From NCBI GenBank assembly GCA_009780245.1, contig WRAJ01000003.1, forward strand, positions 1 to 64,000: a stretch of DNA of 64,000 nucleotides, given 5' to 3'. A program made the translations under genes and the position numbers. Positions 32,505 to 47,471 of this stretch are shown piece after piece. Position 1 is the first letter of the stretch. Every line of letters starts with the position of its first letter. This stretch comes from Turicibacter sp. (GTDB lineage: Bacteria; Bacillota_I; Bacilli_A; MOL361; Turicibacteraceae). The notes under the pieces were generated by a model that did not search any database, had not been told where the DNA came from, and was given only the letters and a program-made list of their open reading frames with translations.

Positions 32505-33602
32505 TTATTTATATCGATTCATCAACCAGCTTGGTACTTCGGCGTTTTCTTTCGTTTCTGTTTGTGACGATGGCTGAGGCGTTGAAGGTGAGTTCATCAC
32601 TTTATGCCCCACTAAAGCATCGTTTAATTTTGGTGCAGAAGAGTTTGTGTCATCAAAGCCCGTTGCAATGACCGTGACAATAATGTCGTCGCCGAGTTCC
32701 GGGTTGACAGCTGCACCGTAAATAATGTTAATTTCAGTTGTTGACGCTTCACGGATCGCACCTAATGCTTCGTTGACTTCGAACAGTGACATATTCATGC
32801 CACCCGTAATATTAATAATCGCATCGGTTGCACCGTCGATATCATTTTCAAGCAGCGGTGAGAAGATCGCTTTTTTCGCAGCTTCTACCGCGCTGTTTTC
32901 ACCGTTTGCATAACCAATTCCAATGATCGCAGCGCCTTTATTTGCCATGACAGTTTTAACGTCTGCAAAATCAAGATTGATCATTCCTGGGATCGCAATG
33001 ATTTCAGAAATACCTTGAACACCTTGACGAAGCACATTGTCTGCTTCTCTAAAGGCTTCCATCATCGGCGTTGCACGGTCAACGATTTGAAGTAATCGGT
33101 CGTTTGATACTGAAATCAATGTATCCACGTTTTCTTTTAATTCTGCGGTTCCAACGTTCGCATGATCGCTACGACGCTTCCCTTCAAAAGAGAATGGCCT
33201 TGTAATGATCCCGATGGTTAATGCGCCGGCTTCTTTTGCAACTTTTGCAATCACAGGTGCCGCACCCGTTCCCGTTCCGCCACCCATACCGCAAGTGACA
33301 AACACCATGTCAGCGCCTTTTAGCATTTCTTTAATTTCAGTTAAACTTTCTTCTGCTGCGCCTCGCCCAATTTCAGGTGCTCCACCAGCACCAAGACCTC
33401 TTGTTAATTCAGCGCCAATCTGTAATTTTTTTGTTGCATTCGATAAGTTCAACGCTTGTGCATCTGTGTTAGCGACAATGAATTCTACCCCTTGCACATC
33501 ACTTTCAATCATGCGATTAACGGCATTGCTTCCCCCGCCACCTACACCAACTACAACAATTCTTGGCTCATATCCAAATTCATTTCCGAATCCATCCATC
33601 AT
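32505..33602 (-). CDS. ftsZ: cell division protein FtsZ
   Basis: The tubulin-like GTPase that forms the cytokinetic ring, 365 residues. [13 protein letters not shown] begins the nucleotide site; the tubulin signature [10 protein letters not shown] and the NVD/NLDFADV T7 loop are intact. A short linker of about 35 residues leads to the C-terminal peptide [11 protein letters not shown], which binds FtsA and other anchors. GGAGG lies 5 bases before ATG 33602; the ATG at 33614 is too close to a ribosome site. The gene follows ftsA by about 20 bases. Confidence 0.97.
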
Positions 33603-33636
33603 AAGATCCTCCATCCTTTATCATTTACTACCGTTG

Positions 33637-35139
33637 TTAATTTTCGACTTCGTCATTCTCGTTAAAAATTCTATCAAAGAATCTTACTAATACACCGCTG
33701 TTTTCTAACTTCTTATCCATGTAGTCGTCAACCGGCTCATCTTCTAATAAACTAATATCATCTTCCCCAAATACTTTGCTCGGCCACGCGTCTTGTTCGG
33801 GTTCAATTTGTGTCAATAAATCTTTGAGCATCGGGCTGTTGTTTTCAACTAGAAAGCCATCTTCAACAGGTTGAGCATCGTCTTCAATTAGTGAAGGGAT
33901 TCGTTCACTCAAAGTTACTTCACCTTGATCTACCTTTGCTTTTTTGATCGCTTCCTGTGCTTGTCCTGGTGCATCGAATTTAATGTTATAACTTTTTGAT
34001 CCGACAAGCAATGCAAATTCATGTGCAAAAATAGCAGCTCCTACGATTTGCGCGTATTTAGCGCTTCTTACACCTAGCATTGATGGCTTATAAATCGACA
34101 CTTCAACCGTTGGGAAATTTTGTTGTAGCAATGGCAACATATTTGGAAATTCAGCCGTTGCACCGGACAACGAATAATGATACTCTTGCTCTCGTATTCG
34201 TAATGTGTCAACAACGTATTGCTTAATTTCTTTGAAGATACGATCACACGCTACCGTGATCACTTGATTAAGCATCCCGCGCGTAATAAACGTCTTTCTT
34301 TTAATATCTTCCATGTAGATAACCTTATCAGATAGCTTTGACTGCTCTTCATTAAGTACCACCTGTCCAAAATCCACCTTTAATTCATTTGCAACCGTTT
34401 CTGATATACCAAACTCATCTGCAATGGCACGCGTGATATCTCTTCCACCCATTGGCAATGAATGCGCATGAATCACTTTACCATCGTTGACAACCGTGAT
34501 CGTCGTCATGTCATGTCCAATGTTCATGTGACAAGTCCGCAAAAACATCTCTGGTGAGCTTAAGGCAGAAAGTGCCTCAGAAATACTTCCTGTTGTAATG
34601 TCCGCAATTTTAAGCTTTGCACTTTCAACGGCATGAATCAAATTAGAAACAATGGTGATAGGAGCAAAAACACGCGTCGCCTCTAGCATCAAAACTCTAC
34701 CAGATAACCCACGTGGGTTTTGAACCAAGTGATTTTCATCAATTCTAAATAAGCGCGGGATCACATTGACAGGTAAAAGTGTCTCTGCAAAAGGTTGTTC
34801 CGATATTTGCCTAAACAAAAGGCGCATATCTTCGGCATCAATGGGCTGATTAATATCTAAATTGATGGTCGTAAAAGCAGGTTCGACAAATGTGTCAATC
34901 GGTGGTATTGCCAACATGATGTGATCCAAATTTTGATTCAAATCCTTCTCAGTAAGCTCTTTAACTTTTCTTATTTGACCCACCAATTTATCAAAATTCG
35001 TGACTTGCCCGCGATCGATTCCAATGGAAGGAACGGATTGATTGGACAGCACGTACATGCGCTCTTCACGAAAATTACAAACAAGGCATTTAATTTCAAA
35101 ACTACCGATCTCTAAACAGGCATAAATATTATTGTTTTC
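33637..35139 (-). CDS. ftsA: cell division protein FtsA
   Basis: Actin-like membrane tether of FtsZ, about 500 residues. YACLEIGSFEIKCLV is the phosphate-1 loop, and later actin motifs (MNIGHDMTTITVVNDG, YHYSLSGATAEFP) are present. After residue ~390 comes an acidic spacer, then the C-terminal amphipathic helix SGVLVRFFDRIFNEN for membrane binding. The frame is open further upstream. TTG 35139 gives an N-terminus like that of other FtsA proteins (ENNNIYACLEIGS) and has GGAGTGA upstream. GTG 35151 is the alternative. Confidence 0.92.
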   Translation of the reverse strand, partial: ENNNIYACLEIGSFEIKCLVCNFREERMYVLSNQSVPSIGIDRGQVTNFDKLVGQIRKVKELTEKDLNQNLDHIMLAIPPIDTFVEPAFTTINLDINQPIDAEDMRLLFRQISEQPFAETLLPVNVIPRLFRIDENHLVQNPRGLSGRVLMLEATRVFAPITIVSNLIHAVESAKLKIADITTGSISEALSALSSPEMFLRTCHMNIGHDMTTITVVNDGKVIHAHSLPMGGRDITRAIADEFGISETVANELKVDFGQVVLNEEQSKLSDKVIYMEDIKRKTFITRGMLNQVITVACDRIFKEIKQYVVDTLRIREQEYHYSLSGATAEFPNMLPLLQQNFPTVEVSIYKPSMLGVRSAKYAQIVGAAIFAHEFALLVGSKSYNIKFDAPGQAQEAIKKAKVDQGEVTLSERIPSLIEDDAQPVEDGFLVENNSPMLKDLLTQIEPEQDAWPSKVFGEDDISLLEDEPVDDYMDKKLENSGVLVRFFDRIFNENDEVEN

Positions 35140-35292
35140 CAAATAAATCACTCCAGTATCCTCTGGATTTAATAGCACTCAAAATAATCATTAAGTTTAT
35201 CCTAACCATTGTACTATATTTCTAGGTTAAAAGAAAGAGCATTTCTAAAATTTATAAACACTTTTTAAGTTTTTTTCCACCAATTATAAACA

Positions 35293-35341
35293 AGTTATCC
35301 ACAACTTATTCCCTCTTTATTGGGATAAGCTGTGGATAACT
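35293..35341. promoter_or_regulatory. inverted pair of DnaA boxes in a long hairpin
   Basis: TTATCCACA (35295-35303) and its reverse complement TGTGGATAA (35331-35339) are perfect DnaA boxes. They lie in 17-bp arms that match at 16 positions, with a CCC/GGG extension in the loop. The site fills the gap between divIB and ftsA, upstream of ftsA-ftsZ. Confidence 0.8.
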
Positions 35342-35343
35342 AT

Positions 35344-36108
35344 TTAATGAGGGACAAAGGGTATGCTTATTCCCCCAATATCCATGTGAAAAGTCCCCAA
35401 CTCACCTGAATCCATCGTTCGAGCTGCCAATTCGAGGTATAGGTTCAATCGTTCGGCCATTGAATGGCTACTCACGATGGCAATGTTTCCGTCGTGCATG
35501 AACAAGGAAAAGCGATGAACGTCACCGTATAGCGGGGCGTATTCAATCATCTGAATCAAACTAATAATCGTCGGGTCGATCTTCATGAGTTGTTGCACAA
35601 ATAAGGTTGGAATGCCTTCTTCGTATTCCTCGTAAGTTAAGCCCTGAATCATTAGTTCATCACAATTTGCTCGCAACCCATGCCTTTCATGAATCAAAAC
35701 ACCGTCGTCTAAGATATGATACAACTCACCCTCGATCAAGGCACAAATCGCAACGGTATACTCAACCACCTCAACACGCAATCGGTTCATCCATAAGCGA
35801 GAGACGTTGGCTTCCCTGACGATGGGATGCTGCTCAATGTCTATTCTAATTTGATTGAGGTTGATACTAAGAAATAACTCATCCGCATCTATTTCAATCA
35901 AAGAAATTAATTCCGCTCGACTAATCATATTCTCTCCCTCAAAATGAATCACACCAAGCTGGCTTAACGGACTCGCAAAATAAGCAACACCTAAAAGGAC
36001 TAGTATAATAAAAAACGAGAAAAACGCCCGTCTTAGGCGCGTTCTCGGTCTTTCTTTTAGTACAAGTTCTTCCTCTGGATTAGTCGAAATATTTTTGTTC
36101 TTCTTCAT
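35344..36108 (-). CDS. divIB: cell division protein DivIB/FtsQ
   Basis: A 254-residue bitopic protein. Basic cytoplasmic residues 1-27 precede one TM segment (RAFFSFFIILVLLGVAYFA) and a POTRA domain beginning GVIHFEGENMISRAELISLIEI. The beta domain contains LYHILDDGVLIHERHG, equivalent to the YLDxDGVVL motif. GAGG stands 8 bases before ATG. With murG and murB upstream and ftsA-ftsZ downstream, it belongs to the divisome cluster. The ylxW/ylxX genes usual in Bacillus are absent. Confidence 0.92.
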   Translation of the reverse strand: MKKNKNISTNPEEELVLKERPRTRLRRAFFSFFIILVLLGVAYFASPLSQLGVIHFEGENMISRAELISLIEIDADELFLSINLNQIRIDIEQHPIVREANVSRLWMNRLRVEVVEYTVAICALIEGELYHILDDGVLIHERHGLRANCDELMIQGLTYEEYEEGIPTLFVQQLMKIDPTIISLIQMIEYAPLYGDVHRFSLFMHDGNIAIVSSHSMAERLNLYLELAARTMDSGELGTFHMDIGGISIPFVPH

Positions 36109-38305: not shown

Positions 38306-38349
38306 ATGCGATTGCTAATAAAATTGCTAACGAAAAGGAGTCCATGCTA

Positions 38350-39468
38350 ATGAAAAAACAACTGCCACCGATTGATTATTTAATCCTGTTTCTAACCTTA
38401 GCACTCACGATTATTGGACTAGTCTTCGTCCTTTCGTCATCCTTTGTCTGGGCAAATCACCGCTTCAACGATCCTTTTTACTTCTTTAAACGGCAATTAC
38501 TTTTTGCTAACATCGGCATCATTGGCATGATCGTCGTTTCCAAAATCGACTACCGGTACTATAAAAAATATGCGACACCTTTTTTAATCATTAGCTTTAT
38601 TTTGCTCGTGCTTGTCCTCGTCCCCGGCATCGGTCTTGTCCGAGGTGGCGCTCAAAGCTGGATTGGAATTGGCGCCTTTTCCTTGCAACCGTCCGAGTTT
38701 ATGAAGCTTTCCTTAATCATATTTTTAGCAAGATTTATGGCTAACAACCCCGAGAATGCGAAGACGTTTAAGCAAGGGGTGCTGCCGATGATGGCGATTG
38801 TCTTGGTCGTCTTTGGTGTCATCATGTTGCAACCTGATTTCGGTACAGGCATGGTCATTGTCGCCGCTGGCATTCTGATGTTATTCTTATGCGGCGTCCC
38901 CGTCAAATATTTCCTTTCTTTCGCAGCAGCAGGTGTTCTAGGAATTGCGGCTCTGATCGCCTCAGCACCGTATCGCCTGGCACGCATCACCGCTTACCTC
39001 GACCCACTAGCCGAGCCACTCGGTTCCGGTTTCCAAATTTTACAGTCGTTATATGCCATTACCCCAGCAGGCTTACTCGGTCACGGTATCGGCAATAGCA
39101 TCCAAAAGAACTTCTACTTGCCCGAGCCGCAAACGGATTTTATTTTTGCCATCATCACAGAAGAAATCGGCTTTATCGGTGCCGTGTTTGTTCTTCTATT
39201 ATTTATATGCTTTTTCCTACGACTTGCACACATCGCACTCAAAATTAACGACCTTTTCGCAAAATACGTGGTGCTCGGGATCATGTCGATGCTTTGTGTG
39301 CAAGTCATGATCAACGTCGGTGTCGTCATCGGATTGTTACCGGTTACAGGGATCACACTACCGTTTATGAGCTACGGAGGTTCTTCTTTAACGATTACCC
39401 TGTTATCAATCGGTGTTATTTTAAATATTAGTCGTTATAGCGAAGAAAGCAGTGAAAAAATACTTTAA
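38350..39468 (+). CDS. SEDS peptidoglycan polymerase, FtsW/SpoVE type
   Basis: A 372-residue protein with ten membrane segments. SEDS hallmarks are present: KRQLLFANIGIIGM, the GLVRGGAQSWIGIGAFSLQPSEFMKL loop (with the key Glu), LLQPDFGTGMV-like MLQPDFGTGMV with the catalytic Asp, and GVVIGLLPVTGITLPFMSYGGSS. The length equals SpoVE, and the next gene is cwlD, pointing to spore cortex synthesis. Vegetative FtsW remains possible, since SpoVE and FtsW are paralogues. AAAAGGAG lies 9 bases before ATG 38350. Confidence 0.85.
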   Translation: MKKQLPPIDYLILFLTLALTIIGLVFVLSSSFVWANHRFNDPFYFFKRQLLFANIGIIGMIVVSKIDYRYYKKYATPFLIISFILLVLVLVPGIGLVRGGAQSWIGIGAFSLQPSEFMKLSLIIFLARFMANNPENAKTFKQGVLPMMAIVLVVFGVIMLQPDFGTGMVIVAAGILMLFLCGVPVKYFLSFAAAGVLGIAALIASAPYRLARITAYLDPLAEPLGSGFQILQSLYAITPAGLLGHGIGNSIQKNFYLPEPQTDFIFAIITEEIGFIGAVFVLLLFICFFLRLAHIALKINDLFAKYVVLGIMSMLCVQVMINVGVVIGLLPVTGITLPFMSYGGSSLTITLLSIGVILNISRYSEESSEKIL

Positions 39469-39483
39469 AGGACGGGATGGAAC

Positions 39484-40197
39484 ATGAAAAAAGTCATCAT
39501 AAGTACCGTGTTGTTTCTTGGGATTGTTCTCGTTGCAATCCCGCTCATTCGAGCTAATATTTCTTGGCAACGACCGGTTGAGATTTATTACGACGTGACG
39601 ATTATTTTGGATGCTGGACACGGCGGGAAAGACCGCGGCGCTTCGAGTAAAGACGGCTTGTCGGAGCGTGATTTAGTCTTTAACGTCACGACCATGGTTG
39701 AGGAACAGCTCCGCTTACAAGGTTTTAATGTCATTCTGACGCGAGTGGGTGAGAGTGATTTGGCTAGTCCCAACGCCTCTAATCGAAAAAGAGAAGACTT
39801 GGCCGCACGGGTTAACATCATCAATACCACTGAAAATGCGATCGCCGTTTCGATTCACGCCAACTCAATTCCCGATACTCGGTGGCACGGTGCACAGGTG
39901 TTTTACGATGCGAGCTCGCTGGAAAACAAGGAATTAGCGACTTATATTATGGACGGTTTGCGCAATAACATCTACGGCTTGGATCGACAGCAACGACCGA
40001 TTTCCAATATTTATATTTTACGCAACTCGGAAATTCCGATGGCGTTGGTGGAAATTGGCTTTTTGTCCAACCCGGATGAAGCCAGGATGTTATCGGATGA
40101 GGAGTATCAGCGCTTGATCGCTTATGCGATTTTTGAAGGCATTTTGGCTTATGTTGAAAGCACAGAAATGCCAGAACCGGTTGAATTGCCGCAATAA
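39484..40197 (+). CDS. cwlD: N-acetylmuramoyl-L-alanine amidase CwlD
   Basis: A 237-residue amidase_3 protein, the same length as Bacillus CwlD. An N-terminal membrane anchor or signal (VIISTVLFLGIVLVAIPLI) precedes the zinc amidase domain: ILDAGHGGKDRGA, the Glu in LSERDLV, AVSIHANSIPD, and VEIGFLSNPDEA. CwlD cleaves side chains during spore cortex synthesis, a step towards muramic delta-lactam needed for germination. It follows the SEDS gene by 15 bases, presumably as an operon. Confidence 0.88.
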   Translation: MKKVIISTVLFLGIVLVAIPLIRANISWQRPVEIYYDVTIILDAGHGGKDRGASSKDGLSERDLVFNVTTMVEEQLRLQGFNVILTRVGESDLASPNASNRKREDLAARVNIINTTENAIAVSIHANSIPDTRWHGAQVFYDASSLENKELATYIMDGLRNNIYGLDRQQRPISNIYILRNSEIPMALVEIGFLSNPDEARMLSDEEYQRLIAYAIFEGILAYVESTEMPEPVELPQ

Positions 40198-44844: not shown

Positions 44845-44911
44845 TTTCATCGCCACCTTTTAAATTTTTTAATAATATCATAAACATCCACCAAACCAAC
44901 CCCACATATCC

Positions 44912-45066
44912 ATTTATTTTTTGGTGTTAAGGTTCGCGAAGCAGGTTCTTAACACCAAAAAATAAATCCAGTAAGCCAAAAGGCGCGGTAGCTCCAAAGC
45001 ACCAAACACACGCAATGACTTAAAAAACATCAAGAGTCTCCTCAACCTGATCACCGAAAGGGCGCC
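44912..45066. repeat. dispersed palindromic repeat, copy A (155 bp)
   Basis: It begins with perfect 20-bp arms (44912-44931 and 44948-44967) around a 16-base loop containing TTCGCGAAGC. CCAGTAAGCCAAAAGGC and GCGGTAGCT follow, and the copy ends with TGATCACCGAAAGGGCGC. The same ordered blocks occur in copy B at 47240-47471. Copy A lacks an internal stretch of about 75 bases present in B. Confidence 0.85.
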
Positions 45067-47169: not shown

Positions 47170-47239
47170 CCCAAAACACCTCTAATCCATAATTTAACAT
47201 TATACCCCAGTACACTCACAAAATTCAACATGTACAATC

Positions 47240-47471
47240 ATTTTTGGTGTTGAAGTTTCGCGAAGCGGATTCTTAACACCAAAAATAATTCCAGTAAGCC
47301 AAAAGGCACCACGAGCGGAAAGGTTTCAACTTTCCAAGCTTTGACACTGGCTCAACTAATGCGAATAAAATTCGCAAGTTTCACGGGCGCGCGGTAGCTT
47401 CAATGCATAAAATCAAGCAATCACCTAAATAAACTCAAGAATCGTTCACATCATGATCACCGAAAGGGCGC
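47240..47471. repeat. dispersed palindromic repeat, copy B (232 bp)
   Basis: It shares with copy A the terminal palindrome (TTTTTGGTGTT...AACACCAAAAA), CCAGTAAGCCAAAAGGC, GCGGTAGCT and ATGATCACCGAAAGGGCGC in the same order. It also contains extra hairpins: GGAAAG/CTTTCC (47317-47335) and GCGAAT/ATTCGC (47361-47375). An enclosing CCAGT/ACTGG pair (47291-47350) could form a junction. It lies between the dehydrogenase and deoC genes. The nested helices suggest an RNA or a folded mobile element. Confidence 0.85.

Follow-up and report, generated by a model that had tools for sequence, protein, structure and literature searches.

The gap between divIB and ftsA in Turicibacter sp. (assembly GCA_009780245.1) carries two perfect DnaA boxes, and judging from its sequence and that of its relatives it probably serves as a DnaA-binding regulatory element preceding ftsA-ftsZ, a reading that we hold with somewhat better than even confidence. 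The arrangement suggests that replication control may feed into division-gene expression in Turicibacteraceae. The strongest evolutionary evidence comes from a second genus of the family, in which a different pair of boxes occupies the same gap.

DnaA boxes in the divIB-ftsA gap

The window analysed here is the whole 64,000-nucleotide stretch at positions 1 to 64,000 of contig WRAJ01000003.1. In it, murG, murB, divIB, ftsA and ftsZ follow one another in this order, all on the minus strand, and all five are supported by Pfam. The start codon of ftsA (TTG 35142) was chosen by comparison with relatives. The features of the gap and its neighbours are listed below; P1 and P2 denote the putative upstream and nearer promoters of ftsA.

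35344..36108, minus strand: divIB (FtsQ-type POTRA, Pfam), the upstream gene, in the same direction as ftsA
35331..35339, minus strand: DnaA box 1, perfect TTATCCACA, ftsA-distal, about -63 to -55 from the inferred P1 start
35293..35341, no strand: palindrome enclosing both boxes, 49 bp, with 20-bp arms and a 9-nt loop
35295..35303, plus strand: DnaA box 2, perfect TTATCCACA, ftsA-proximal, about -27 to -19, in the spacer of the inferred P1
35283..35288, minus strand: TATAAT, inferred -10 of putative P1, 6 bp downstream of the ftsA-sense box
35273..35281, plus strand: TTTTCCACC, a weak DnaA-box-like word, placed after TATAAT like TTTTCCACA in the dnaA promoter of the genome
35208..35219, minus strand: ATATAGTACAAT, likely -10 region of P2, kept in 8/8 family members
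33637..35142, minus strand: ftsA (Pfam); the likely start is TTG at 35142, preceded by the ribosome-binding site TGGAGTG
32505..33614, minus strand: ftsZ (Pfam)

The preliminary description of this DNA had reported two perfect inverted DnaA boxes in a near-perfect 17-bp hairpin between divIB and ftsA. Both boxes were located, in opposite orientations, and the Pfam assignments of the neighbours agreed with the reported position. The hairpin was also recovered, with arms slightly longer than described. Consensus DnaA boxes are present in the intergenic, presumed promoter, region upstream of ftsA, and the DnaA of this genome has the canonical box-binding domain IV (PF08299). Read in the ftsA sense, box 2 is TGTGGATAA. 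By eye, the translations of 38344-40197 resemble FtsW/RodA and N-acetylmuramoyl-alanine amidase; these genes adjoin murG-murB-divIB on the opposite strand.

The palindrome has no T tract on either side and is therefore not an intrinsic terminator. No convincing further copy of it was found in the genome apart from its own opposite strand, which led us to reject a mobile or repeated element. A replication origin was likewise rejected, as the operon crosses the site, the GC skew does not switch there, and dnaA-dnaN lies on another contig. The palindrome may instead act as RNA, its stem protecting the ftsA-ftsZ mRNA or helping to process it, with the DnaA words incidental. As ftsA-sense RNA it would indeed be very stable (folding energy -29 kcal/mol, z = -9), and the single mismatched pair of the arms becomes a G-U wobble in that RNA. 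However, Rfam covariance models gave no match for the palindrome, a T tract is missing, the relatives that keep boxes lack a hairpin (z = -0.8), and two perfect DnaA boxes would have to be coincidence. We consider this explanation unlikely.

Chance expectation in the window genome

The window genome is a draft of 2.1 Mb in 60 contigs, 76% complete. It holds 33 perfect boxes, compared with 12 occurrences of the reversed word used as a control. Random placement would give about 0.018 pairs at most 36 bp apart in this draft, and the arrangement TTATCCACA-N5..35-TGTGGATAA has no second occurrence in its 2.1 Mb. Among the 30 box loci that were read, 27 lie inside ORFs; the three intergenic boxes are the ftsA pair and one preceding an ATPase-like gene. 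The inverted pair alone is nevertheless weaker evidence than it appears, because two boxes lying on opposite arms of one palindrome do not count as independent. Hairpins with arms of at least 17 bp number eight in the 64-kb window, including the box palindrome; most of the other seven, which have similar arm lengths, resemble intrinsic terminators. Counting the palindrome arms as one event, and given eight such hairpins in the window, we roughly estimate 0.05 box-bearing hairpins per genome by chance. Taken by itself, the window genome is thus suggestive of a DnaA site, not strong evidence for one.

Two of the window hairpins (44909-44970 and 47236-47290) are long and related, sharing GGTGTT..CGCGAAGC..TTCTTAACACC. 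They are probably repeated terminators or members of a small repeat family.

Conservation and turnover in the family

We compared the locus in eight family genomes, one per species. Boxes were found in the gap in five of the eight, in two arrangements. The preliminary description had named a lack of boxes in close relatives as one ground for refutation, and this lack is seen in the sister species of the same genus (G001) as well as in G002 and G004, whose divIB-ftsA gaps contain no DnaA box. In contrast, four species of another genus, g3 (G003, G005, G006 and G007), carry TGTGGATAA-ATAA-TGTGTATAA directly past the divIB stop codon, which amounts to a perfect TTATCCACA box and a TTATACACA box arranged in tandem at a distance of 13 bp and oriented like box 2 of the window. 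A 24-bp block, CTGTGGATAAATAATGTGTATAAT, is identical in all four g3 species, whereas the flanking bases vary. At fourfold sites of the neighbouring genes in the same species, 68/367 positions are invariant (18.5%); neutral sites among the four are near saturation. Since the block is invariant at such divergence, we read it as a footprint of selection on the two DnaA boxes. Evolutionary support for a DnaA site thus appears stronger in g3 than in the genus of the window itself.

The arrangement depends on lineage, being inverted with boxes 36 bp apart in the window and tandem with 13 bp in g3. The hairpin is not conserved. A tree of five proteins placed G004 as the outgroup of the four g3 species, with the window species and G001 distant. 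Together, the two arrangements and the tree require either two gains or much turnover. Two separate gains at one spot would be the simplest history; ancestral presence followed by three losses is also possible. No boxes were seen in the divIB-ftsA region of roughly 30 other genomes from the class, a few of which have an incomplete locus.

These comparisons bear on a further explanation, that the words arose by chance in an AT-rich gap and that the g3 boxes are a fortuitous reading of an unrelated conserved promoter. The box-free sister species would fit it, as would the imperfect boxes of the window: words one mismatch away from TTATNCACA are no more frequent than expected by chance (71 observed, 72 expected). 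Yet the window pair is perfect, an independent and clear pair occurs in a second lineage, and the 24-bp footprint persists despite saturated divergence, so that we regard chance as very unlikely.

Distribution of boxes along the chromosome

The g3 genomes each contain 85-148 perfect boxes, several times the reversed-word control. In the complete ones (G003, G005 and G006), the 40% of the chromosome closest to dnaA accounts for about 95% of the perfect boxes (89/92 in G003 and 90/96 in G005), and the remainder is nearly empty. The reversed word showed no origin-proximal bias in G003. This gradient looks like an extreme origin-proximal load for DnaA titration. In E. coli and Salmonella, too, DnaA boxes are known to be enriched near the origin, a pattern tied to titration (PMC12371093); the g3 gradient appears much steeper.

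With so clear an origin-centred load, most g3 boxes need not be regulatory, and DnaA might bind at the ftsA gap without any output on ftsA-ftsZ, as a stray titration site or a DARS-like reloading site. A precedent is offered by E. coli, whose ftsZ boxes are inert as summarised in PMC8203912. The g3 ftsA pair, however, sits deep in the otherwise nearly box-free terminus half, at 84-87% of the distance to the terminus. In G003, an arc of 1.58 Mb (0.39-1.97 Mb) contains three perfect boxes, two of which are in ORFs, leaving the ftsA box as the only intergenic one. A pair retained at such a position is hard to explain as background. It is moreover tied to the beginning of a single operon, and one pair would titrate little DnaA. 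Binding without output is accordingly a reading to which we give little credence.

For the earlier proposal that these sites act on ftsA-ftsZ, the balance is mixed: the tandem boxes in a second genus, their position in the g3 terminus half and a nearby likeness to the dnaA promoter (see below) speak for it, and the three box-free species, the unconserved hairpin and the inert E. coli boxes speak against it.

In the window, the sign of the GC skew flips at about 12 kb, from positive to negative. Such a switch would be expected close to a replication terminus and is consistent with the terminus-proximal position of ftsA-ftsZ in g3. The window gave no match to the dif site of B. subtilis.

Putative promoter anatomy and likeness to the dnaA promoter

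TATAAT lies downstream of TGTGGATAA at a promoter-like distance in both lineages, and in g3 it overlaps the second box. No -35 was recognisable for P1, and a sigma-70 scan called no promoter. Closer to ftsA, the motif ATATAGTA(A/C)AAT is common to all eight family genomes and is likely the main promoter, P2.

In the dnaA promoter of the window genome, as judged by sequence, a TTTTCCAC word comes after TATAAT, at the start site, and another box lies upstream; the ftsA gap is laid out alike. It differs in its boxes, which are TTTTCCACA in the dnaA promoter and two perfect TTATCCACA within a palindrome in the ftsA gap. In the window, the inferred -10 is followed by TATAATTG-G-TGGAAAA. The pattern TATAATTG-N(0-2)-TGGAAAA, which was picked after both sequences had been inspected, has two matches in the window genome (the dnaA promoter and the ftsA gap), one in G001 (its dnaA promoter) and a single further one in the rest of the family. 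In a plain local alignment of the ftsA gap with the dnaA gap, 23/2000 shuffles were equally good; by this unbiased test the likeness appears modest. The region upstream of dnaA in the window genome (L121:9173-9463, G000:C1) contains two TTTTCCACA and, unlike that of its relatives, no TTATNCACA box.

We propose that DnaA, probably in its ATP form, would bind the two boxes cooperatively and cover the spacer and the start of P1. At high levels of active DnaA, P1 would be repressed, because its spacer and start would be covered, and bound DnaA may also block read-through from divIB. Inactivation or titration of DnaA after initiation would then release P1, and the nearer, conserved P2 would provide a DnaA-independent base level. 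We favour repression, with activation as the main alternative, because the boxes overlap the site expected for RNA polymerase and because of the likeness to the dnaA promoter, which DnaA represses in several species (PMC8203912). Activation would also be consistent with the poor -35 of the putative P1. DnaA is capable of both, for example at nrdAB (PMC8203912).

Comparison with known systems

If it acts as proposed, the ftsA-ftsZ site is a candidate to join the known DnaA-linked division genes, B. subtilis ftsL and Caulobacter ftsZ. In B. subtilis, likewise a Bacillota bacterium with DnaA boxes before a division gene, the ftsL promoter is bound by DnaA in vivo (Goranov et al. 2005, as cited in PMC8203912). 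There the gene is ftsL and binding has been shown, whereas in Turicibacter the genes are ftsA-ftsZ and the site is known from sequence alone. Proteomics of B. subtilis after initiation arrest found the products of the ftsL operon and other DnaA-regulon proteins unchanged (PMC11019786). The same theme of DnaA acting on ftsZ transcription is found in Caulobacter crescentus (Hottes et al. 2005; Fernandez-Fernandez et al. 2011, both as cited in PMC8203912), although lineage and promoter are unrelated to those of Turicibacter and the effect is activation, linked to DnaA-ADP. E. coli also has boxes upstream of ftsZ, and in the account given by PMC8203912 these have no effect on ftsZ transcription (Smith et al. 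1996); they lie within the ftsQA coding sequence, whereas the Turicibacter pair is intergenic. Our literature search found no paper that connects ftsA of Bacillota with DnaA boxes.

A genus that has complete genomes and conserves a DnaA site directly before ftsA-ftsZ would make the question of DnaA control over these genes testable in a lineage outside Caulobacter and E. coli. A bolder possibility, which we find doubtful and offer as speculation, is that the initiator directly times the division-ring genes, that the origin-proximal box load, by draining DnaA, sets the release of ftsA-ftsZ, and that the arrangement arose at least twice at one spot. In this reading, nearly the only DnaA boxes of the terminus half are those of the terminus-proximal ftsA-ftsZ operon, and the drain of DnaA after each initiation would set the timing of the operon.
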